IMG/VR virus record: IMGVR_UViG_3300024353_000004
Coordinates: 1 to 37,030 of that record
Origin: a virus
Length of the DNA: 37,030 nt
Direction: 5' to 3' (one strand)
The notes beneath the pieces are model-generated. The model was given only the letters and a program-made list of their open reading frames with translations. It ran no database searches and was not told the origin of the DNA. Positions 12,301 through 36,166 of this stretch are shown here, one piece after another (position 1 is the stretch's first letter; each line of letters opens with the position of its first letter). The translations under genes were made by a program, and so were the position numbers.

Positions 12301-13515
12301 TCAAAACGTGTATTCCGTGCCGTTAACAGTAATGCAAACCCTCTCATCTGGAAGGATATTGCAATTCTGAATGGTATTGCCGATCAAAACGCCGCGCATT
12401 TCTTGCCACGCGTCTTTTTCAAGGCTGCTCATTTTCATGGCCGGGTTATCATGGGCGTACCAAAACATACGCTCCACCCCTTTTGCCGCCGATATGGCAA
12501 GGTGACGCTTGATCATTTTGGCTTTCCACTCGTCGTGAATTACCCTAGCAGGATCGTACAGCATCCCGGTTTCCGTGTTCCAAACTTTTGTCGCCGTTTT
12601 TCCTGCTGCATCAAGGATAGTTCTCACACGATCCATCTGGTCCCAAACAATTCCAAAATTGTATTTTGGTGGGTACAGGTGGACAAAACAAATATCCATA
12701 TGGTCTTTGCCTGTTCCTGCCGCCCCATCTGATGCTGCAAGGAAAGTTTGCAGCCAGTCATCACCAGTTCCTTCCGGTTCTTGGATGGTTGGAGCACCAA
12801 CAATCAAAGCGGGATTCGCAGCTCTAACGGCGTTCCTAAACAGACGCAGAATATTGGCATATTCGGCATGCGTGCCAGCCCAGTAACTTGAGTAATTGAC
12901 CTCGTTATATATCTCGTAAGTGTCAATTAGCCCGCGTGTGGTGCCATTGTACCGGGTAGCTAACTGAGTGCCAAAATTGGCAAAAGCAGTAGCGCCCGCA
13001 GACGTTGGCACTTGATTCGACCCTGTGTTAGTAGTGCCGTTGTCATATTTGCCATTGTTTGGCGTGGCAACGGCATACCTGTTGGGCGTGCCAATAACCA
13101 TGTACAACAGCTTTTTCCCGGCTGCATAGAATTGGTCACACACAACATCAAGATTTGACCAATCGTATCCGCTGGCATTGTCGATATTGTGCCAGCGTAG
13201 CCCCGCACCATTGATCGGCCCCTTAACGTCATGTAGCCGCACACCGTAATAGTCAATGTCCGTTGGCACGCCAGTTACTTTGGGGTCGTACACATGGATA
13301 TTAAAAAAGGTGCCGTCAATCGTCCGCGAGCCGTTAAAGATGTTTTTAACGGCATTCTTCGGGCTAGAAATGCCACCTTTTGCGTGGTAATCATACTTTG
13401 TTAACGCCTGGTATTTAGTGCCGTCAAACCAAGCCTCGACCGTACCTTCCGGGTCTGGACTTGCTTTCGACGACACCCCTTCCGCCGTTATAATATTACC
13501 AAGCTGGGCAGGCAT
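12301..13515 (-). CDS. Clan GH-A-like glycoside hydrolase, probable virion-borne depolymerase (404 aa)
   Basis: The sequence has features of a (beta/alpha)8 retaining glycosidase. Strand beta-4 ends IDTYEIYNEVNYSSYW with the Asn204-Glu205 acid/base pair, and strand beta-7 ends KVWNTETGMLYDP with Glu315 as candidate nucleophile. His and Tyr residues in FVHLYPPKYN fit the active-site rim. It resembles GH39/GH5-type enzymes, but subfamily and substrate cannot be told. The first 60 residues look like an attachment domain. Its ATG overlaps the stop of the anchor-like gene upstream. Lying between portal and scaffold genes is unusual and suggests inserted cargo carried on the capsid. Confidence 0.65.
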   Translation of the reverse strand: MPAQLGNIITAEGVSSKASPDPEGTVEAWFDGTKYQALTKYDYHAKGGISSPKNAVKNIFNGSRTIDGTFFNIHVYDPKVTGVPTDIDYYGVRLHDVKGPINGAGLRWHNIDNASGYDWSNLDVVCDQFYAAGKKLLYMVIGTPNRYAVATPNNGKYDNGTTNTGSNQVPTSAGATAFANFGTQLATRYNGTTRGLIDTYEIYNEVNYSSYWAGTHAEYANILRLFRNAVRAANPALIVGAPTIQEPEGTGDDWLQTFLAASDGAAGTGKDHMDICFVHLYPPKYNFGIVWDQMDRVRTILDAAGKTATKVWNTETGMLYDPARVIHDEWKAKMIKRHLAISAAKGVERMFWYAHDNPAMKMSSLEKDAWQEMRGVLIGNTIQNCNILPDERVCITVNGTEYTF

Positions 13516-19854: not shown

Positions 19855-20020
19855 TACTTATTTTAACTATTTTTTGATGTCAAATTTCCACCTCGCCGCT
19901 ACAGTCAATTTTGTAAATCTGCCTATGTTCGCGCATACGTTTGCCCCGTGTGTAGTGGAAAGCCCCCGGCTTTAGCCGTGGGGTTATTTACTTATCTCCA
20001 CTTTTTGGTGTATAAAAAGC
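19855..20020. other. Non-coding A/T-rich spacer left of the minus-strand cassettes
   Basis: No gene seen. It contains the palindrome at 19963-19983 and the word TATACACCAA (minus strand) just beyond the last R'' box of the cassette cluster. Base composition changes sharply from the cassettes. Confidence 0.5.
19963..19983. repeat. IS200/IS605-type palindrome (left of cassette cluster)
   Basis: Sequence CCCCCGGCTTTAGCCGTGGGG folds as CCCC-CGGC / GCCG-(T)GGGG with a TTTA loop. This GC-stem/TTTA-loop form is characteristic of IS200/IS605 family ends. No transposase or TnpB gene is present nearby, so it would be an orphan end. Confidence 0.55.
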
Positions 20021-20028
20021 GTTAGCCG

Positions 20029-20286
20029 TCACAGGCGCGTGTATCCGCTCTCGAAAGCACCAGCCGGTGAAAACGACTTATAGCCATCCTCATAGACCAC
20101 GTAGTAGCCACCGACCTCGGGCTTGTGCTTCGCTACGTACTCCGGCGACATCGGCACCTTGTCGTAGCCTTCTTCGGACGGCTGGAAATAAACCCCTCCA
20201 TGTTGGTCGCCAACAATTCCGGCAATCTTCAGCGCCCAAACCTTTTTGTGGCATTCGTACTTCGGCATTTCGCGGCTTACGTTCAT
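20029..20286 (-). CDS. Cassette L3 protein (85 aa)
   Basis: I start at ATG 20286 (MNVSREMPKYECHKK), with GAGG 7 nt upstream; the longer ORF begins inside the attC region. The protein reads KVWALKIAGIVGDQHGGVYF, then EYVAKHKPEVGGYYVVYEDG with a YKSFSPAGAFESGYTRL end. This ending is common in small phage- and cassette-encoded proteins of unknown function. The stop lies just before the R'' box, the usual place in cassettes. Confidence 0.65.
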   Translation of the reverse strand: MNVSREMPKYECHKKVWALKIAGIVGDQHGGVYFQPSEEGYDKVPMSPEYVAKHKPEVGGYYVVYEDGYKSFSPAGAFESGYTRL

Positions 20287-20325
20287 GTTTAAGTCCTCAA
20301 AAACCGTGGCTTCGTCGGGCGTCAC

Positions 20326-20383
20326 GGCTAACCCGTCAATCAACGCGGACGGCTTTCAGCCGCCGGTTATTTTTGCGTTATGC
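20326..20383 (-). repeat. attC site L2 (58 bp)
   Basis: Minus-strand order: R'' GCATAAC, spacer, L'' AATAAC, inner stem CGGCGGC, loop, GCCGTCCG, L' GTTGATT with the extra-helical G, spacer, R' GTTAGCC. The arms pair as expected for a folded attC bottom strand. R'' is the exact complement of the GTTATGC that starts its cassette. Confidence 0.8.
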
Positions 20384-20790
20384 CCAGCCTTCGCCAGTGC
20401 CCTCGCATCTTCAAGGGCATTGTGGGGAATGGCCGAGGTCGTCGCCGTGTCAGGCAAATCGCGGCGAACCTCAAAGGTCATCGTGTCAGGGCCAATTCTG
20501 TCGCCCGGCGCATATTCCAAAAAGTTGCAAAAGTGCGCAATATCACCCGGCCAGTCCGAGACGATATGCACGGCATCAAACTGCCCAAGAAACTCGGCCA
20601 GTCCGGTGCGCAAATCTGCGTCCCGCTCCGGTTGTTGCAGTAGTTGCGGCATCACATGCTCACGCACCCACCATCCAGGGTCATCGCAGAACCGTACCCC
20701 GTACCACTCGCGCCCATCTTCGGCCACCAGCGCCATTGAAATCAGCGCACCGTGGTATTCGTTAAATTCAGTGTCAATCCAAATTCGCAC
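20356..20790 (-). CDS. Cassette L2: DEDD-type 3'-5' exonuclease, Rv2179c-like (144 aa, GTG start)
   Basis: GTG at 20790 is preceded by GGAG. The product begins VRIWIDTEFNEYHGALISM with the first DxE pair, continues HIVSDWPGDIAHFCNFL with the second Asp region, and ends HNALEDARALAKAG with the His...Asp of a DEDDh active site. This set fits the RNase-T-like fold of Rv2179c-type exoribonucleases. The gene fills one cassette from TTATGC (20820) to the end of attC L2, so it travels as a unit. Substrate is unknown; RNA or ssDNA trimming is expected. Confidence 0.7.
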   Translation of the reverse strand: MRIWIDTEFNEYHGALISMALVAEDGREWYGVRFCDDPGWWVREHVMPQLLQQPERDADLRTGLAEFLGQFDAVHIVSDWPGDIAHFCNFLEYAPGDRIGPDTMTFEVRRDLPDTATTSAIPHNALEDARALAKAGHNAKITGG

Positions 20791-20814
20791 TATCGTTCTC
20801 CTAGTCAAAAACCG

Positions 20815-20873
20815 GCATAACACGGCGCTCAAGCGGGACCGGCTGAAGCCGGCCCCTTAGCTATGCGTTGGGC
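20815..20873 (-). repeat. attC site L1 (59 bp)
   Basis: Minus-strand order: R'' GCCCAAC, spacer GCATA, L'' GCTAAG, inner stem GGGCCGGC / GCCGGTCCC, L' CTTGAGC carrying the extra-helical G, spacer GCCGT, R' GTTATGC. Full pairing on both arms. Its left half closely resembles attC R2 at 32614, with the same R'' and spacer. Confidence 0.85.
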
Positions 20874-22069: not shown

Positions 22070-24424
22070 TCATCGGCAACCATTCCCACGCGCCTTGCTG
22101 TAGGCGATATTTTTTTGCTTTATTTTGTTGAGCACCGCCGCCGTGATAGGGGCACTCGGCGTAGATTCAAATCGCCACGATTTGGGCGGGTAGGTGCCCA
22201 TAATATCTTTGTAAAGGTGTGCGGCGCGTCCAGCCTGTTTTTCCGGCGCTGAATTGCCTCTGGCGTAAGCGCACATCTGCTCATATAGGTGGCGCGAATC
22301 ATCCGCCAGCTTGCGCTTGCCAATCATAATCTCGACCATCTCGCCCGGCACTGACTCGATCAGCGACGGCTTGACAATCGCGAAGCCGCACGCCATGCAG
22401 CGCTTGGCGAATGGCTTGCTTCCGCATGCTGGGCACCCCTTCGCCGGTTCTTTTTCCTCGTCATCGTCGCGGCGGATGGTCTTATCCAATTTTTCACCCG
22501 CATCCAGTACATCCAGGCCGTTAAAATAAATGTCCTCAAAATCCTCCTTGAAGCGGATGATATTCCCCGAAAAATCCAGCAGCTTGAAATGGTCTTTGCC
22601 GGGATGTGATCGTGCCCCCCTACCCCACATCTGTATTGCTGTGGACAGAGATTTGCGCAGCGGCCTAATATCCAGGATTACAGTCACGTCGGGACAGTCA
22701 AAGCCCTTCGCGAGAGCCTCCACGCTCAGAAGCACGCGTATTTTTGAGTCAGGCTTGGTGAACTCGGCAAGAAGAGATTCGCGCTCGTCGGCTTTTGTCT
22801 CGGACGTGAATACCTCTGCGCGCACGCCAGCGGCTATAAATTGCTCGCGCAGCTCCTCGCAATAGGCTATCGTCGGCCCAAATCCGATAGTCTTGCCCCC
22901 AGATGCATGCTCAAGCCACTCGTTAACGACATCTCCCACAATCTCCATACCTCGCTCTGCGGCTGCGTTCTCAGTCCATTCACCACCGGATGTCTCAGCA
23001 CCGCGCATATCGACCGTAGTGCAGCTCAGCACGCGCATCGGCACAAGCGTCCCCTGCTCGACAAGCTCGGCCATTGTGGTGGCGTTGATCAAATTTGAGT
23101 AGATCAGACCAAGCCCTTTTGAAAATGGTGTTGCCGATAATCCCACGCAATGCGCGCCGCTATTTTTGATGTAATCGGTAGTTACCTTTAGCTGGGTGTG
23201 GCAATTGTGGACTAATACGCCATTTGCAAAATAGGACGGATGATCATCGACCCGTAAGTTGTACACATTGATTCCCCCAGGGTATTCGACAATCTTAATA
23301 CTTTCCACCCAAGGCTTCTCAGCAATGCATCTTTTTTCCTGTCCTGTGCTTGCCTCGATAGAGCACAATGGCTCATTCCGTCCAATTCTATTGCTATTTT
23401 CATGGCGGGATTCGCTATGTCTATTTTGTAATGATGCGGGTATCCCTGCGTATTGCTTTTCAGTGTTTTTTCTGCATATTCCGCTTTCCAACCGGCACCT
23501 AAAAGCCCCATCATCGCCGCTTGAACTTTCGTCATACCACGCCCGTTCCCGCCCTGCTTCGGAGGTCTGTGGCCCATAGAAAGAAGAGTTGCAGATACTT
23601 TTTCTCGCGCTTCCAATTTGTGCATCGGATTTTTTAATTTCTTTGCGCAAGATTTCCCGCAACATTCTCGTGCGCTGAACGACACCTCTGCTTCGTATAT
23701 CATCTTCCCTTTGTATCCCTTCACTTTCCCTGGGTAAAAATCCCCCCCACACTTCCTGCACGTCTTTACGGCGAAATAAGCGCGTACCGACACCCAGGGA
23801 GCTAGCGGATCTCCATCCCATATCGGTAAAGATTGGATGATCTGCTGTGCATTCGATAATTGTCCCATCCGAAATCCTTATTTTTAATGTCGCATATACA
23901 ACTTTTGAGAATACACTGAGAATCTGTGACTCTCCGCATGAATTATATATGAGTTCACCACAAGAAAGCGAATCAATTCTCTTTTGCCCTAGTGGTGTGT
24001 CAATAAGTGTATGTCCTGGAAAACATTCGTCGATTATCACGGTATCAAAATGGTCTATCCCTCGCCGCGCCAAAGTCTGTGCAGAGGCTATCTGAAATGG
24101 CATATTGCGGTTGGCGCGCCAATGCCCTGACTGAAAAATCCCGTGCGCGGACAATCCATACTCATCTGCTTTTTTGCTGGCCTGATTTATGAGCGTGATC
24201 CGGTCACAGATGAATATCGCACGCTTGCCACGCTTAAGCGCTTCATGGGCGATCCGCAAGCCAAGGTACAGCTTTCCAGCGCCGGTCGGTGCCATGACCA
24301 CTTGGCACCGATGTCCGGCCCTTGCTCCGGCTCTTAGAGACTCATGAGCGGTGACCTGGAATGGCCTTGGATCGGGAAAATTCGACGAGGCGTAATTCGG
24401 CGCATCCAAAAATGTGGTCTGCAT
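22070..24424 (-). CDS. SF2 DNA helicase interrupted by an intein (784-aa precursor, about 510-aa mature protein)
   Basis: The extein is a superfamily 2 helicase: Q-like region PDPRPFQVTAHESL, motif I APTGAGKL (45-52), motif Ia AIFICDRITLINQ, motif II split as DE (132-133) and CH (408-409), motif III GLSATPFSKG, motif V region VEALAKGFDCPDVTV, motif VI IQMWGRGARSHPG, and a C-terminal zinc ribbon CPACG...CMACG. Residue 52 is Leu where Ser or Thr is expected in a Walker A. Replicative or recombination role is inferred from the primase-like, ParB-like and RepL-like neighbours. The precursor must splice to rebuild the DECH box. Confidence 0.88.
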   Translation of the reverse strand: MQTTFLDAPNYASSNFPDPRPFQVTAHESLRAGARAGHRCQVVMAPTGAGKLYLGLRIAHEALKRGKRAIFICDRITLINQASKKADEYGLSAHGIFQSGHWRANRNMPFQIASAQTLARRGIDHFDTVIIDECFPGHTLIDTPLGQKRIDSLSCGELIYNSCGESQILSVFSKVVYATLKIRISDGTIIECTADHPIFTDMGWRSASSLGVGTRLFRRKDVQEVWGGFLPRESEGIQREDDIRSRGVVQRTRMLREILRKEIKKSDAQIGSARKSICNSSFYGPQTSEAGRERAWYDESSSGDDGAFRCRLESGICRKNTEKQYAGIPASLQNRHSESRHENSNRIGRNEPLCSIEASTGQEKRCIAEKPWVESIKIVEYPGGINVYNLRVDDHPSYFANGVLVHNCHTQLKVTTDYIKNSGAHCVGLSATPFSKGLGLIYSNLINATTMAELVEQGTLVPMRVLSCTTVDMRGAETSGGEWTENAAAERGMEIVGDVVNEWLEHASGGKTIGFGPTIAYCEELREQFIAAGVRAEVFTSETKADERESLLAEFTKPDSKIRVLLSVEALAKGFDCPDVTVILDIRPLRKSLSTAIQMWGRGARSHPGKDHFKLLDFSGNIIRFKEDFEDIYFNGLDVLDAGEKLDKTIRRDDDEEKEPAKGCPACGSKPFAKRCMACGFAIVKPSLIESVPGEMVEIMIGKRKLADDSRHLYEQMCAYARGNSAPEKQAGRAAHLYKDIMGTYPPKSWRFESTPSAPITAAVLNKIKQKNIAYSKARGNGCR
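23204..24025 (-). mobile_element. Intein in the DECH box of the helicase (274 aa)
   Basis: Precursor residues 134-407. Block A is CFPGHTLIDTPLGQKRI with Cys1. Block B is GTIIECTADHPIF with the TxxH set. Block F is INVYNLRVDDHPSYFANG. Block G is VLVHN followed by the +1 Cys of the extein. All splicing residues of a class 1 intein are present (Cys1, block-B His, penultimate His, terminal Asn, +1 Cys). The region between blocks B and F (about precursor residues 215-370) shows no LAGLIDADG or HNH motif in this frame; it reads as Ser/Arg/Glu-rich shadow of the nested endonuclease gene. Confidence 0.93.
23212..23868 (-). CDS. Vsr-like (EDxHD) homing endonuclease nested out of frame inside the intein (218 aa)
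   Basis: The ORF is shifted by one base from the helicase/intein frame and lies wholly inside the intein. ATG 23868 has AAGGA 6 nt upstream. Residues 37-74 hold a Cys cluster (CRKC, then ECCGKSC) for zinc. Residues 147-195 carry the EDxHD core: YKIDIANPAMKIAIELDG with E161 and D163, H167, then DRKKDALLRSLGWKVLRL with D176. This matches the Vsr-like homing family known from I-Bth0305I and from split-intein loci. It probably cuts intein-less helicase alleles at the DECH-box site. The first 35 residues overlap intein block B, and the last 30 overlap block F. Confidence 0.88.
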   Translation of the reverse strand: MGQLSNAQQIIQSLPIWDGDPLAPWVSVRAYFAVKTCRKCGGDFYPGKVKGYKGKMIYEAEVSFSARECCGKSCAKKLKNPMHKLEAREKVSATLLSMGHRPPKQGGNGRGMTKVQAAMMGLLGAGWKAEYAEKTLKSNTQGYPHHYKIDIANPAMKIAIELDGMSHCALSRQAQDRKKDALLRSLGWKVLRLSNTLGESMCTTYGSMIIRPILQMAY

Positions 24425-30825: not shown

Positions 30826-31329
30826 ATGACTATACTTACATGTAAGGTAGATGGATGCGGGTCTCCAAAGGATGGGGCGCATCCTACCTGTGGCAAACAC
30901 AGAAGACGAATGAGGCTTTACGGCGATTATTCGGAGACCAAAAACAACAAGCCCGGCGAAGGATTCATGGTGCGTGGTTATCATGCCGCACAGATAGACG
31001 GCAAAAAGAAATTCACTCATGTGAGAATTGCCGAAGCAGCGTTAGGTCGTGAATTGCCAGAAGGCGCTGTTGTCCATCACGCTAACGGCATCCGTGACGA
31101 CAACAGGAATGCCAATCTTGTTATCTGCCCGGACAAAAAATACCATAATCTTCTTCATGCGAGAATCCGCGCCCTGGAAGCGTCAGGCGACCCGTCAAAG
31201 CGCAAATGTAGACGCTGCGCCACGTATGACAGTGTTGAAAATTTGAATTTATCTGGAGCGGGATACTGGCATAAATCGCACAAACGAAACCCCGGTAAGT
31301 GCATAATTCAAAAGGTGAATATTTTATGA
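30826..31329 (+). CDS. HNH homing-type endonuclease (167 aa)
   Basis: An N-terminal zinc site (CKVDGCGSPKDGAHPTCGKH) is followed by a GYHAAQIDGKKKFTHVRIAE strand pair. The HNH core is GAVVHHANGIRDDNRNANL with VICPDKKYHNLLH, as in phage homing enzymes. A second CxxC lies in KRKCRRCATYDS. It sits two bases after erf and overlaps the exonuclease start (ATGA), so it has inserted cleanly between two recombination genes. Confidence 0.85.
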   Translation: MTILTCKVDGCGSPKDGAHPTCGKHRRRMRLYGDYSETKNNKPGEGFMVRGYHAAQIDGKKKFTHVRIAEAALGRELPEGAVVHHANGIRDDNRNANLVICPDKKYHNLLHARIRALEASGDPSKRKCRRCATYDSVENLNLSGAGYWHKSHKRNPGKCIIQKVNIL

Positions 31330-32036
31330 TTGTATACCTAGATTTGGAGACTTTGCCCACGAATGACCCGGTGCTAATAGAAAGATTAGGCGCATTGATC
31401 AAGGCTCCTGCTACACATAAAAAACAGGAGACCATTGACAAATGGCACGAAGAGAACGGAGCGGATGCCCTCGCAAAAATCGTAGCAGAGACCAGCTTTT
31501 CAGGGCTTTATGGCCGCATCGCCTGCCTTGCGTGGATGGTCGATGACGAGGAGGTTTTGGCGACCGATGCAGCAGACACCGAGGCGCAGGCAATCAGAAA
31601 GTTTTATGACTTCATCCAGGATTATTCTCGGTTTGGGAATTCTGCTCTGACATTCTGCGGCCATGATATCGCCAGATTTGATTTGCCATTTTTGAAGCAC
31701 CGCAGCATCATTCTCGGCATCAAGCCGCCACCGGCCATCTACAAGGCCATGCACGCCAAGCCATGGGATAGCTGCATTGCAGACACTAAAGTAATGTGGA
31801 CAGCCGACCAGTGGGGGCACGGGAGTATGGACAAATTGTGCTATGCGCTCGGCATCCCGGGCAAGGGCGATTTTGACGGATCGATGGTTGCGGAGACGTG
31901 GCCGCGAGACCCCGCGAAAGTTATCGAGTATTGCAAGGATGATGTTCGTCGGACTCGTAAAATATACAAGAGACTCACATTTTCGGAGACGAAGCACGGC
32001 AACGGCACTCTGTTAGGCGCAGAACTGGAGATATGA
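31326..32036 (+). CDS. DEDDy 3'-5' exonuclease, PolB-exonuclease-like (236 aa)
   Basis: Start ATG 31326 overlaps the HNH stop. MIVYLDLETLPTND gives D6 and E8. TFCGHDIARFDLPFLKHRS provides the second Asp region. VIEYCKDDVRRTRKIYKRL gives the Y...D of the DEDDy set. This matches phage 3'-5' exonucleases related to PolB proofreading domains, used with ERF-type annealases. The last codons run toward the edge of the cassette cluster, so the C-terminus may have been altered by the insertion. Confidence 0.8.
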   Translation: MIVYLDLETLPTNDPVLIERLGALIKAPATHKKQETIDKWHEENGADALAKIVAETSFSGLYGRIACLAWMVDDEEVLATDAADTEAQAIRKFYDFIQDYSRFGNSALTFCGHDIARFDLPFLKHRSIILGIKPPPAIYKAMHAKPWDSCIADTKVMWTADQWGHGSMDKLCYALGIPGKGDFDGSMVAETWPRDPAKVIEYCKDDVRRTRKIYKRLTFSETKHGNGTLLGAELEI

Positions 32037-32038
32037 AG

Positions 32039-32329
32039 ATGGAGAACGCACAAACCGAAAACAGCGCCGCTGGCGGGGCGTCCGAGTTGACTGACGTGTT
32101 AGAGCGCATGCGTGCCAGGGCAGATAACGCCTATTGCGACTACATCGGACAACTGCGGCGCGATGAGTGCTTGGGCTGGGAAATTAAGGTTGCGCGCGGC
32201 AAGTTTGGCGAGGCCGAGATGAAGGCGCACTGCGCGGCGGCTGAAAAGCTCGGGCGTCACCGGGCACTGCATGAGGCGGCGAACATGCTGGCCGAGGTGT
32301 TGCGCTCTAACGTAAAGTTAACCGGCTAG
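32039..32329 (+). CDS. Cassette R1 protein, read from the preceding half-attC (96 aa)
   Basis: GGAG stands 8 nt before ATG 32039. The first 23 residues (MENAQTENSAAGG...) are translated half-attC. The cassette proper starts at 32099 (TTAGAG), and ATG 32108 in the same frame would give MRARADNAYCDYIGQLRRDE... (73 aa) but lacks a ribosome site. The body is a small helical protein with KAHCAAAEKLGRHRALHEAA. The longer form would be an accidental fusion made by the insertion. Function unknown. Confidence 0.55.
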   Translation: MENAQTENSAAGGASELTDVLERMRARADNAYCDYIGQLRRDECLGWEIKVARGKFGEAEMKAHCAAAEKLGRHRALHEAANMLAEVLRSNVKLTG

Positions 32330-32371
32330 GCGGGATTTATCGCCTAGTCCGAGTTGAACGCCGGGTTGGGC
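32305..32371 (+). repeat. attC site R1 (67 bp)
   Basis: R'' CTCTAAC, spacer GTAAA, L'' GTTAAC, inner stem CTAGGCG / CGCCTAG, L' GTTGAAC with the extra-helical G, spacer GCCGG, R' GTTGGGC. Its R'' is the exact complement of GTTAGAG at 32098, the start of cassette R1. Confidence 0.87.
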
Positions 32372-32386
32372 AACGAAAGGATGAAA

Positions 32387-32626
32387 ATGGATATTATTGA
32401 ACGGCTACTCGACGATGCACTACACCATGATGATATGGCAACTCAATGCGATTGCGCGCCTGAGCACACAGTAAACTACGACCATGCTGTAAATGCAAGA
32501 GAGGCTGCAAAAGAAATTGAGAAACTTCGCAAAACTCTTAATCAGGTATTAGTTGACGCGAAATCTCAGGATGTTTTGTTCGAATGGTGGGGAGCAATAG
32601 AATTTTCCCTGACGCCCAACGCATAG
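32387..32626 (+). CDS. Cassette R2 protein (79 aa)
   Basis: I start at ATG 32387, with AAGG 6 nt upstream (32377-32380). The product begins MDIIERLLDDALHHDDMATQ, has CDCAPEHTVNYDHAVNAREA and ends in the attC (LTPNA, stop TAG within the R'' spacer), a common cassette trait. A small acidic helical protein of unknown function. Confidence 0.65.
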   Translation: MDIIERLLDDALHHDDMATQCDCAPEHTVNYDHAVNAREAAKEIEKLRKTLNQVLVDAKSQDVLFEWWGAIEFSLTPNA

Positions 32627-32678
32627 TTGTGGGGCCGCGCGGCTTTTTGCGCGGTCCCGCACGAACGCCGGGTTATAC
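32614..32678 (+). repeat. attC site R2 (65 bp)
   Basis: R'' GCCCAAC, spacer GCATA, L'' GTTGTG, inner stem GGGCCGCGC / GCGCGGTCC, L' CACGAAC with the extra-helical G, spacer GCCGG, R' GTTATAC. R'' exactly complements the TTGGGC that starts cassette R2. Confidence 0.87.
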
Positions 32679-32938
32679 GTCTTTTCCACGCGACCACGCA
32701 AAAAAAGGCCAAACAGTACCGCCAGACCGGGGCTATAAAAAGCCCTGTGCGCGGCTTTACAACGATGACCGGGGCGATGGCTTGGGCGATGAAAGTTGGG
32801 CGCACGGTCATCATCGAATTTGAGGCTGGTAACGCCCATAAGCTACCAGACCACCACAATGATTTTGGAGAGGCGTGGTGGAACGACGGGGACGTGACAG
32901 ACTGGCGCTGCGCGTTTTCAGCGAACGGAGACGCATAA
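32627..32938 (+). CDS. Cassette R3 protein, start codon uncertain (up to 103 aa)
   Basis: The cassette gene itself starts at or before VIRLFHATTQKKAKQYRQTG and goes on PVRGFTTMTGAMAWAMKVGR, then HKLPDHHNDFGEAWWNDGDV, ending inside attC R3. The shape (HATT..KA..Y..TG.I, then A..WA...GR.V) recalls small ADP-ribosyltransferase-like proteins, a weak guess. No ATG precedes the conserved part within the cassette; the only in-frame start upstream is TTG 32627 inside attC R2. So the gene may be read from a rare start or may have lost its own. Confidence 0.5.
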   Translation: MWGRAAFCAVPHERRVIRLFHATTQKKAKQYRQTGAIKSPVRGFTTMTGAMAWAMKVGRTVIIEFEAGNAHKLPDHHNDFGEAWWNDGDVTDWRCAFSANGDA

Positions 32939-32995
32939 CGCTGGCGTAACCGGCGCTGAGCTTGCGAAGCGTCCGCGTTGACGCAAATGTTAGAC
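32933..32995 (+). repeat. attC site R3 (63 bp)
   Basis: R'' GCATAAC, spacer GCTGG, L'' CGTAAC, inner CGGCGC / GCGTCCG, L' GTTGACG with the extra-helical G, spacer CAAAT, R' GTTAGAC. One mismatch to the cassette start TTATAC. Confidence 0.83.
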
Positions 32996-33006
32996 ATGGA
33001 GCGACG

Positions 33007-33357
33007 ATGAAAGTAAAAGACTGGCACGAACCGAAAGAACAAATGTGCAACCTCGGACGCCACAGCTGGAGCGTACCGCGCCTGTTTGAGCTTGCGCGAG
33101 AACTGCCGGTGATGGACGTTCCGCTCAACCACCTGAGCCTCTACTACACCTACGAAAAGCTCACGCTGCGCGAGATGGTTACTCACATGAAAGCCGTGAA
33201 CGCTGCCGACCTCGAAAAGCCGATCATCTTGGACGAGGATGGCGAATTGATGGACGGCAGGCACCGGCTGATGAAGGCTCTGCTTACCGGAGCAGAAACG
33301 ATCAAGGCGGTACGGTTTGACGATAACCCATCGCCGTGCCAAGTGAGAGATGCCTAA
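33007..33357 (+). CDS. Cassette R4: small ParB-like fold protein (116 aa)
   Basis: GGAG 5 nt before ATG 33007. MKVKDWHEPKEQMCNLGRHS, LFELARELPVMDVPLNHLSL, then PIILDEDGELMDGRHRLMKA, in which DGRHR is the ParB/Srx nucleotide-binding signature also found in the phage's own ParB-like gene (ADGFHR). It ends just before R''. The fold would bind a nucleotide or act in regulation; partner unknown. Confidence 0.68.
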   Translation: MKVKDWHEPKEQMCNLGRHSWSVPRLFELARELPVMDVPLNHLSLYYTYEKLTLREMVTHMKAVNAADLEKPIILDEDGELMDGRHRLMKALLTGAETIKAVRFDDNPSPCQVRDA

Positions 33358-33408
33358 CGACCCGAATTAAGCGGCGGCGTAGCCGTCCGCTTGGATGACG
33401 TGTTAGGC
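33352..33408 (+). repeat. attC site R4 (57 bp)
   Basis: R'' GCCTAAC, spacer, L'' ATTAAGCGG, inner stem CGGC / GCCG around GTA, L' CCGCTTGGAT with the extra-helical G, spacer, R' GTTAGGC. This is close to the classic 59-base-element form of mobile-integron cassettes. Confidence 0.87.
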
Positions 33409-33418
33409 GGCACCCCAC

Positions 33419-33604
33419 ATGGATACGAAAATGCACAACGACGAAGTAGAAAAGTTTGAGGCGTGGTTTGAACAACGCAAAAAGGAATCTTGGGCGGCGG
33501 CGCTGTTGCCCGGAGAAAATAAGCCATGCCCACAGAACTGGAGCGCAGCATACAAGCCGTATTTCCGTGAAGCATGGCTTGCACGGGCGAATCTTGCCAC
33601 CTAA
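33419..33604 (+). CDS. Cassette R5 protein (61 aa)
   Basis: MDTKMHNDEVEKFEAWFEQR followed by WAAALLPGENKPCPQNWSAA and YFREAWLARANLAT, stopping in the R'' box. ATG 33431 is a possible alternative start. A small protein with several Trp; such short proteins with FEAWF...AWLARA are frequent in cassettes and phages. Function unknown. Confidence 0.6.
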   Translation: MDTKMHNDEVEKFEAWFEQRKKESWAAALLPGENKPCPQNWSAAYKPYFREAWLARANLAT

Positions 33605-33682
33605 CGGCGTTGAGCTAAGGGGCGAACCGCGCAGCGGTGAGTCCAGCGAATGAAAGGAGCGACCTTGAGCGAATTGTTAGCC
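33599..33682 (+). repeat. attC site R5 (84 bp)
   Basis: R'' ACCTAAC, spacer, L'' GCTAAGG, a longer loop region, L' CCTTGAGC with the extra-helical G, spacer GAATT, R' GTTAGCC. One mismatch to the cassette start TTAGGC. Confidence 0.78.
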
Positions 33683-33853
33683 ATGAAGCCAACGTGTAGG
33701 AACTGCGAAGCCGTATTGGAAATTGATGAGATTCATTACTACGACCACGGTGATGGAACCGCAACCTGCAACAATTGCGAAGCCGATTGGCTGGCAGCGA
33801 TAAACGCTTGGCGGAGTGGTCGCGGCGGTGATGAGCCACCTCTGCCACCGTAA
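33683..33853 (+). CDS. Cassette R6: small zinc-finger-like protein (56 aa)
   Basis: ATG 33683 comes straight after the R' box (GTTAGCC ATG). MKPTCRNCEAVLEIDEIHYY, then GTATCNNCEADWLAAINAWR with two CxxC pairs, a compact zinc-ribbon layout. It stops 1 nt before R'' GGCTAAC. The remaining attC is missing. Confidence 0.65.
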   Translation: MKPTCRNCEAVLEIDEIHYYDHGDGTATCNNCEADWLAAINAWRSGRGGDEPPLPP

Positions 33854-33854
33854 T

Positions 33855-33904
33855 GGCTAACTACTAATATACACCAATAAAATACCTAAAATTTTAGCAG
33901 ACAC
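33855..33904 (+). other. R'' box of a truncated attC and joining sequence
   Basis: GGCTAAC (33855-33861) exactly complements the start of cassette R6, but no L', R' or stem follows. The next bases include TATACACCAA at 33868-33877, the same word found at the same distance after the last R'' of cluster L. A palindrome CTAAAATTTTAG (33886-33897) precedes the next gene. Confidence 0.6.
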
Positions 33905-34369
33905 ATGGCGGCCAAAAAAGAATTGTATTTGATGCGCGTGACAAAGGGCGCTCTTGAGCCAGCAGACGGGTATACAAGATCCCTGCTGCGGGCGAAGGGA
34001 TACAAAAAAGGTGACTCGGTATTTGTCAGCATCACCAAGCCACGCAACCCCGGATACCATAGGCTGGCTCATTCTCTAGGCGCCATTATCGCCGAAAACG
34101 TGGACGCATTCGCAGGGCTGGACGCGCACGCCGTCCTTAAGCGGTTACAGCTAGAGGGTAATATTGAGTGTGACGAGATTGCGTTGATCTTCCCAGGCCT
34201 TGGGCCGTGCGCGTACCGTGTGCCTAAGAGCTTGAGCTTTGCGAGCATGGGGCAGGATCAATTCGAGGCGTGCTATCTTGCGATGTGTCGGCATGTGTCG
34301 TGTCAATATTGGCCGTTGCTGAGCGCGGACGAGGTTGCAGAGATGGCGGAGGTTATGGCTAACGAGTGA
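33905..34369 (+). CDS. DUF1367-like phage protein (154 aa)
   Basis: MAAKKELYLMRVTKGALEPA with DGYTRSLLRAKGYKKGDSVF, then SITKPRNPGYHRLAHSLGAI, the RNPxxHR motif typical of DUF1367, and a C-terminal helical part. Usually near replication/late-switch genes in lambdoid-like phages. Role unknown. Last rightward gene; it meets the leftward lysis operon head to head at its 3' end. Confidence 0.6.
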   Translation: MAAKKELYLMRVTKGALEPADGYTRSLLRAKGYKKGDSVFVSITKPRNPGYHRLAHSLGAIIAENVDAFAGLDAHAVLKRLQLEGNIECDEIALIFPGLGPCAYRVPKSLSFASMGQDQFEACYLAMCRHVSCQYWPLLSADEVAEMAEVMANE

Positions 34370-34434
34370 TATCACCTGTCCTTATTTCGGAGGTGTTGAG
34401 TTTTAGCGAACGCCGTTTTGACGTGTGATATCAC
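34366..34434. repeat. Pair of identical 10-bp palindromes GTGATATCAC
   Basis: Copies at 34366-34375 and 34425-34434, 59 bp apart, at the point where the two transcription directions converge. The first includes the stop of the DUF1367-like gene; the second lies within the small gene on the other strand. They may be a protein-binding site or chance. Confidence 0.4.
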
Positions 34435-35288: not shown

Positions 35289-35455
35289 GGGGCATCCTTA
35301 AAGGACTGTATACGCTCATCGACGATCTTCAAAAGATCCGACAGCGGCACACGCATATCCTTGAGCCGCTCAATCCCTGCGTCCAGCACCTCGCCATGTA
35401 ACTGGGATAAAATCCGGAACGATTTCTCAGTAATAAAATTCGTCGTGTCTTTCAT
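35285..35455 (-). CDS. Small helical protein (56 aa)
   Basis: Start ATG 35455 overlaps the endolysin stop. MKDTTNFITEKSFRILSQLH and ERLKDMRVPLSDLLKIVDER form two helices. It lies between endolysin and holin-like genes. Not recognised. Confidence 0.5.
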   Translation of the reverse strand: MKDTTNFITEKSFRILSQLHGEVLDAGIERLKDMRVPLSDLLKIVDERIQSFKDAP

Positions 35456-35985
35456 GCAAGCACCTCTTTTGCCGCTTCCCACCGTGCCAGCCTATCATCA
35501 AGACCATTCAAGCCGCCGTTGATTCTGCGTGTGATGCGCTCGAATTTCCCTGCATCAGCAAGATCATTTAGACCCCTGGAGTCCCAAAACCATGCTGCCG
35601 ATAATGACGCCCATTCCGCCGTTTCAAGCAATTCTGGTCGCTCGACGAAATCCCTTCCCAGCGCTTCACTCACCTCGACATAATTTGCACGCCCAGTAAT
35701 CTGGATCAGGCCGCGCCCCATAAAGAGTTTTCCGTCGCCCCTCTGAGTGTTGCCCAGATCCTTGCGCCCCTCATATTTGATCTGCGCCGGTGTCGGCCCC
35801 CATATCTCACGCGTGTAGCGCAGTCCGCCGGATTCGTGGCCGATCTGGGCGAGGAACGCGGATTGTCTACGCGGCGTAGTGATATCGTAGGCAAGCATGG
35901 CTTTATTGAGCCACGATGCAAACACAGACGCCCGCGATATCGGGCCGCCTGTTGATTTCGCTATTTGCGTAACGGTTAGTGTCAT
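35452..35985 (-). CDS. Endolysin, GH19 chitinase-like muramidase (177 aa)
   Basis: I chose ATG 35985 (MTLTVTQIAKSTGG), which follows AAGGG and lies just after the upstream TAA. The GH19 core is FLAQIGHESGGLRYTREIWG with the catalytic Glu in HES and a second Glu downstream, then YEGRKDLGNTQRGDGKLFMG and RGLIQITGRANY, the family hallmark. It degrades peptidoglycan. No signal peptide, so a holin is needed. Confidence 0.88.
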   Translation of the reverse strand: MTLTVTQIAKSTGGPISRASVFASWLNKAMLAYDITTPRRQSAFLAQIGHESGGLRYTREIWGPTPAQIKYEGRKDLGNTQRGDGKLFMGRGLIQITGRANYVEVSEALGRDFVERPELLETAEWASLSAAWFWDSRGLNDLADAGKFERITRRINGGLNGLDDRLARWEAAKEVLA

Positions 35986-35989
35986 GCCC

Positions 35990-36166
35990 TTACCAATCCC
36001 CACCAGCGCCACATAGCGCGTACATATTATCCGTAGCGATGTCATGCAGTTCATCAACGTCTGGCGATTGCGGCATATCCGCCAGCCGTGACATTATAGT
36101 CCTTAACTGCTCAACATTCGCTACTGCTATCTCGTCGAGCAGTGATTCTCTTTCTTCCGGCTTCAT
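35990..36166 (-). CDS. Small acidic protein upstream of the endolysin (58 aa)
   Basis: A short gene (ATG 36166, GGAG 6 nt upstream) reading MKPEERESLLDEIAVANVEQ, RTIMSRLADMPQSPDVDEL and ending MYALCGAGGDW, stopping 4 nt before the endolysin start. Coupled by spacing. The ribosome site lies just after an IS605-type palindrome. Function unknown. Confidence 0.55.
   Translation of the reverse strand: MKPEERESLLDEIAVANVEQLRTIMSRLADMPQSPDVDELHDIATDNMYALCGAGGDW

Follow-up and report, generated by a model that had tools for sequence, protein, structure and literature searches.

Bacterial integrons are known libraries of gene cassettes. Chromosomal and class 1 integrons resemble the phage arrays described here in the structure of their attC sites, in the family to which their integrase (IntI) belongs, in the geometry of intI, attI and attC, and in a crossover placed between G and TT (G|TT). 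In the phage arrays, however, the cassette genes are reversed and run with intI and the operon, there is no divergent array, and the genome that is our main subject contains no intI. Loot et al. 2024 (cited in PMC11023631) reportedly describe the insertion of cassettes at non-classical attG sites, a situation that is similar in that cassettes lie outside a standard integron and the integrase is supplied in trans. It differs from ours in that the head of the array described below is similar, across 40 positions, to a true attI from one bacterial family, rather than to a generic site.

CALINs (two or more attC sites without a neighbouring intI) are already known from phages: Qi et al. 2023 (PMC9892861) report attC arrays and integrons in 21 phages, some of them virulent, and five of six phage attC sites tested there were recombined by IntI1. 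In the available portions of that article the cases with intI are for the most part Vibrio, Shewanella and class 1 integrons carried by temperate phages. Our phages share with theirs the attC arrays and the methyltransferase cassettes; the same portions contain no mention of reversed polarity, of a phage IntI lineage with its own attI, of host-type attI without an integrase, or of natural turnover between sister phages. A search of the literature, excluding preprints, returned this article alone as a description of phage attC arrays and found no account of reversed cassettes, a phage IntI/attI lineage or the use of host-type attI, all of which appear to be unreported.

Two cassette arrays in a phage genome

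The window, by which we mean the whole stretch of DNA analyzed, is a single IMG/VR record of 37,030 bases. It carries a 127-bp exact direct terminal repeat, which points to an apparently complete phage genome. No match to an IntI or tyrosine recombinase domain (TIGR02249, PF00589) was obtained in the whole genome, in agreement with an initial annotation of this DNA. Three other genes were noted by eye: a helicase-like gene (22070–24424, minus strand) with an apparent intein, between CFPGHTL and VLVHNC, that splits a DEC/H motif; a long protein of the structural region with the look of a glycoside hydrolase (12301–13515); and a chitinase-like lysis enzyme (35452–36057, minus strand).

A covariance model (CM R1) trained on 37 attC sites, from bacterial integrons only, was run on the window with filters off and returned seven matches at 25–46 bits; the next-best match scored 11.8 bits. 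Five make up the main array and are the five sites that the initial annotation had proposed, each scoring well (25–45 bits) in the search of both strands; the remaining two form a second array, at 20.3–20.9 kb, which that annotation had overlooked. A weight-matrix-plus-pairing score placed six of the seven sites (four of five in the main array) at 26–44, where the best value from 40 shuffled windows was 22.1. An Rfam scan returned no match. An early search that required strong complementarity between R'' and R' overlooked most sites, since the two boxes of an arrayed site derive from different cassettes. The integron cassette array in the window is genuine.

The polarity of the sites is the reverse of what had been supposed. 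Canonical attC sites beside intI, and those of a class 1 integron, carry the extra base (mostly C) in L'' of the gene-carrying strand. Read on the plus strand, the sites of the main array carry an extra base, a G, in L', that is, in the other arm. It follows that the five sites of the main array are canonical on the minus strand. The extra-helical G described initially does lie in the plus-strand L', but the canonical extra base is that of L'', the R''/L''/L'/R' labels are mirrored, and inspection by eye shows no clean single bulge in attC2. Since the canonical strand is opposite to the genes, the expected crossover (in R', between G and TT) falls in the box previously called R'', and a cassette therefore comprises an attC and the gene downstream of it.

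So defined, the main array contains five whole cassettes, all with their genes on the plus strand and their sites on the minus strand. The first (32311–32619) holds attC1 (32305–32371, predicted cut 32310|32311, 45.4 bits), which is similar to one from an integron in a Gallionellaceae MAG (L207), and ORF2 (32354–32626), without a family match. The second (32620–32938) holds attC2 (32614–32678, predicted cut 32619|32620, 40.5 bits) and ORF3 (32627–32938), with homologues in Pseudomonas and Aeromonas phages; the third (32939–33357) holds attC3 (32933–32995, predicted cut 32938|32939, 37.7 bits) and ORF4 (32962–33357), a ParB-like phage protein (phrog_17560). In the fourth (33358–33604), attC4 (33352–33408, predicted cut 33357|33358) scores 42.9 bits on the minus strand and 10.9 on the plus, and is followed by ORF5 (33419–33604), again without a family match. 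The fifth (33605–33860) contains the weakest site, attC5 (33599–33682, predicted cut 33604|33605, 25.0 bits), which folds poorly, and ORF6 (33650–33853), with a weak zinc-ribbon match. Among phage and plasmid records, homologues were found for ORF3 and ORF4 only.

The main array had been described as one of six genes; the sixth is a truncated first cassette. Its gene, ORF1 (32033–32329, plus strand, 98 aa), is retained in a sister phage (L082, below), and of its attC there remains only an orphan R box, GTTAGGC (32012–32018, minus strand), fused to the exonuclease gene. This flanking gene, of the DNA_pol_B_exo2 type (31326–32036, plus strand), encodes a 3'-5' exonuclease and continues at its 3' end into the truncated cassette. 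Past the array head lies a gene for a NinB/Orf-like recombination mediator (33905–34369, plus strand). Right after it, within 34362–34434, GTGATATCAC occurs twice, 59 bp apart, as a direct and inverted repeat; the pair may be an operator. In relatives of the NinB and exonuclease genes at 50–60% identity (L083–L086) no comparable array was found at the same locus.

The second array has its genes on the minus strand and its sites on the plus strand. One cassette (20022–20377) carries a gene at 20029–20343 and is 90% identical to a cassette in another phage (L290); the other (20378–20867) carries a gene at 20356–20832 with an RNase H/exonuclease-like profile (phrog_2259). The sites are attC6 (20326–20383, predicted cut 20377|20378, 45.5 bits) and attC7 (20815–20873, predicted cut 20867|20868, 45.8 bits). 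All seven window sites thus score on the strand that does not carry their genes.

Reversed cassettes and their turnover among phages

In bacteria a gene and its attC usually share polarity; some bacterial cassettes are reversed too, so that the rule is usual rather than absolute. The window cassettes are all reversed, and comparison of sequences indicates that this is general in phages. Viral loci were drawn from a pattern scan of IMG/VR together with loci fetched earlier, and at least 69 of them contain at least two attC sites (up to 13 per locus): phage-borne arrays, initially described as rarely reported, are a common feature. Among the matches listed, and with all loci taken together, cassette genes at 99 viral loci were reversed in 356 cases and normal in 44, whereas those at 33 bacterial loci were normal in 115 and reversed in 16, both samples having been chosen by sequence similarity and not at random. 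Bacterial integrons found using a phage IntI as query had 50 normal and 6 reversed genes. When only those phage cassette genes were counted that have a homologue in a further phage array, 106 were reversed and two were not, among the matches listed. Phage MW202573, from the set of PMC9892861, has five sites in our analysis, and its annotated genes lie on the other strand; TJE1 has normal polarity. No support was found for viewing the reversed cassettes of bacterial arrays as phage cassettes kept in store; several resemble toxin-antitoxin pairs or doubtful ORFs.

Across 99 phage intervals, among the matches listed, the reversed ORFs match 60 PHROG and 16 Pfam families, while the longest ORFs of the other strand match one and none, respectively. 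The families include N6_N4 methyltransferases (six members), Mom, Dam, Tad2-like and Acb2/Tad1 proteins, MazG and exonucleases.

Comparison with the sister phage L082 shows that content changes by whole cassettes. The two genomes share a flank that is 99.96% identical over 2.8 kb, and L082 lacks window positions 32311–33357, which is exactly three cassettes. The array is thus not fixed among near-identical phages, and the exchange between related phages that had been anticipated is borne out. The junction lies in a common core of six identical bases, CTAACG, 2–3 bp off the predicted cuts. The GTTAGGCGCAGAACTGGAGATAT leader of the truncated cassette sits, in L082, ahead of a different cassette gene. 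A candidate attC after the L082 exonuclease gene (177–255) failed the covariance model. L082 also contains, at about 490–1790, an insertion with a tnpB-like gene, which we take to resemble an IS200/IS605 element; it breaks the attC of an extra cassette (protein MNIPTHEEMEKVL...) that is absent from the window.

The same pattern holds beyond this pair. Among 54 similarity ends inside arrays, taken from 24 non-redundant pairs of phage arrays, 25 fall within 10 bp of the canonical cut (∼5 expected) and four near the mirror-image R box (∼5 expected). L238 and L289 have one cassette in common (98% identity), both ends of which lie no more than 1 bp from the cut, within unrelated flanks. In the comparison of L082 with the window, as at the 25 ends, it is units bounded by G|TT that are gained or lost whole.

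Cassettes common to phage and bacterial arrays are almost absent from this sample. At the DNA level, the matches listed between phage and bacterial arrays look like integrase sequence; in a protein search for such exchange a single bacterial gene matched. It lies on a Gallionella sp. MAG contig (L206) with an IntI and a reversed array, and is homologous to cassettes of phages L393 and L394. L206 is probably a prophage, and suggests Gallionella as a host of phages with such arrays.

Array heads and phage integrases

Both window arrays open with GGCTAAC-N6-TATACACCAA. In the second array this motif, read on the minus strand, places the head at 20005–20023 (listed on the plus strand; predicted cut 20021|20022). 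The head of the main array (33855–33899, minus strand, predicted cut 33860|33861) is attI-like. At 33859 it was compared with the attI of a bacterial chromosomal integron (L472): 30 of 40 cut-anchored positions are identical, with a shuffled maximum of 24. Some attI copies in the L472 family (e.g., L506) have 26 exact bases in common with the window head. The motif TAGACACCAATAAAATACC occurs in six of eight genomes of this family, the reversed motif in none, and its copies adjoin intI and attC wherever the fetched stretch permits the check. An IntI of the family is ∼71% identical to that of Gallionella. The likeness of the heads suggests that the host of the window phage belongs to an L472-type family; a search for an infection link, such as a spacer, between the phage and the matching genomes found none. 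The genome does have at least two attC sites without a neighbouring intI, as the initial label of a CALIN-like cluster implied, but that label is too weak given the attI-like site, which exceeds the definition.

Four other phages without IntI match other bacterial attI regions at 25–31 of 40 positions, three of these being Gallionellaceae or Gallionella. A head motif that recurs in IntI-less arrays (e.g., L291, L229, L226, L104) is an inverted repeat, AAC-N7-TAKACACC with GGTGYNTA ∼6 bases further on. The layout of the phage attI is similar (CGACA-N5-TGTCG).

Many other phages encode an integrase, and most of these fall in a single viral group. A full-length IntI above the TIGR02249 cut-off was present in four of 50 viral records searched, two of the four being near-identical phages. 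In one of them (L344/L345) the genes follow one another on one strand as terminase, cassettes, methyltransferase, intI, portal, protease and tape measure. A scan returned 237 viral relatives, and 80 loci were kept; any attC sites in these are located upstream of intI and on the other strand in all but a few loci (L368, L378, L398), and the cassette genes are almost always co-directional with intI. A FastTree analysis of 175 rows united 60 viral IntI and the class 1 IntI1 in one group (support 91). In a smaller IQ-TREE analysis IntI1 again fell among viral rows with moderate support, and a few bacterial IntI were mixed in with weak support. Class 1 IntI1 is placed inside the phage group with viral L397 as its sister, at moderate support and in a sample from which close bacterial relatives may be missing.

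Upstream of phage intI a conserved attI, AACTTAAATTCNNCGACA, was found at 28 of 63 loci and at zero bacterial loci; it is absent from the window. In three pairs of sister phages identity stops exactly at AAC|TTAAATTC, beyond which the cassettes differ, the footprint expected from insertion at attI.

Probable recombination in trans and the alternatives

We regard it as probable that the window arrays are attI–cassette platforms adapted to phage life, on which a host IntI works in trans. Each would consist of an attI-like head and of cassettes in which the phage coding strand is also the recombinogenic strand of attC; along the direction of phage transcription attC would come first and the gene second, with expression driven by the phage operon in place of an integron Pc promoter. 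As the window has no IntI, activity in this genome would depend on an enzyme supplied in trans, and since the main head is of the attI type of one bacterial family's chromosomal integrons, host IntI would most likely act during infection to recombine the attI and attC of the phage. A role for a host integrase, raised in the initial annotation, is made plausible by this head. Cassettes would be inserted, removed and swapped, and would come from a pool, specific to phages, of accessory and counter-defence genes; other phages that draw on it bring their own IntI and attI. The reversal itself may reflect retention of the ancestral geometry of IntI, attI and attC inside a single operon running in the direction of intI: cassette genes would then have to flip to be transcribed with the operon, and the recombinogenic attC strand would fall on the coding strand. 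In a chromosomal integron, a recombinogenic attC strand on the lagging-strand template leads to more cassette excision (PMC11023631).

The helper could instead be an IntI supplied by another phage, co-infecting or resident. Many phages encode IntI, cassettes recur across different phages, and an attC × attC exchange needs no matching attI; but the phage attI motif is absent from the window, whose head instead matches the attI of a bacterial family, and we consider this alternative unlikely. We think it rather less likely still that the arrays are a passive relic, a stretch of host chromosomal integron acquired once and now inert. The absence of an integrase and the similarity of attC1 and the head to host sites would fit a relic, whereas gene polarity in host integrons is opposite, ORF3 and ORF4 have phage homologues, near-identical phages differ in array content, and the window has two arrays that share one head motif.

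Nor is it at all likely that the differences between sister phages arose, independently of IntI, by homologous or slippage recombination at short repeats at attC edges. The six identical bases at the L082 junction would permit this, and phages encode annealing proteins (ERF in this one); yet similarity ends cluster at the canonical cut and not at the mirror R box, which has a similar short repeat, the cassette shared by L238 and L289 is base-exact at both ends in unrelated flanks, and three pairs diverge exactly at attI. That the hairpins are transcription or translation elements merely resembling attC, as their position between co-directional genes might suggest, can be set aside given matches of up to 61 bits to the bacterial attC model, a strand asymmetry of the attC kind, and their place at the edges of moving units. 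The initial reading of canonical plus-strand cassettes, each a gene followed by its attC, accommodates the alternation of genes with near-palindromic sites but is refuted by the scores of all seven sites, attC4 among them, and by indel boundaries at the other box.

Beyond the window, we lean slightly towards an integron system of the phages' own: a mostly phage-only IntI lineage with its own attI, joined by IntI-less phages that would use the host integrase through host-type attI, and a common phage-specific pool of reversed cassettes, including counter-defence genes; the closest kin of IntI1 may lie in the phage lineage.

Such arrays would be the phage counterpart of the bacterial cassette libraries: arrays in which site-specific recombination exchanges whole accessory genes between phages, among them those for methyltransferases, Mom, Tad2-like and Acb2/Tad1 proteins. 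They would offer a concrete mechanism by which the accessory and anti-defence loci of phages evolve in modules. They also make several questions testable: why the genes are flipped, whether host IntI is used by way of a matching attI, whether the closest kin of IntI1 are in phages, and how reversed cassettes arise, the genesis of cassettes being an open problem.
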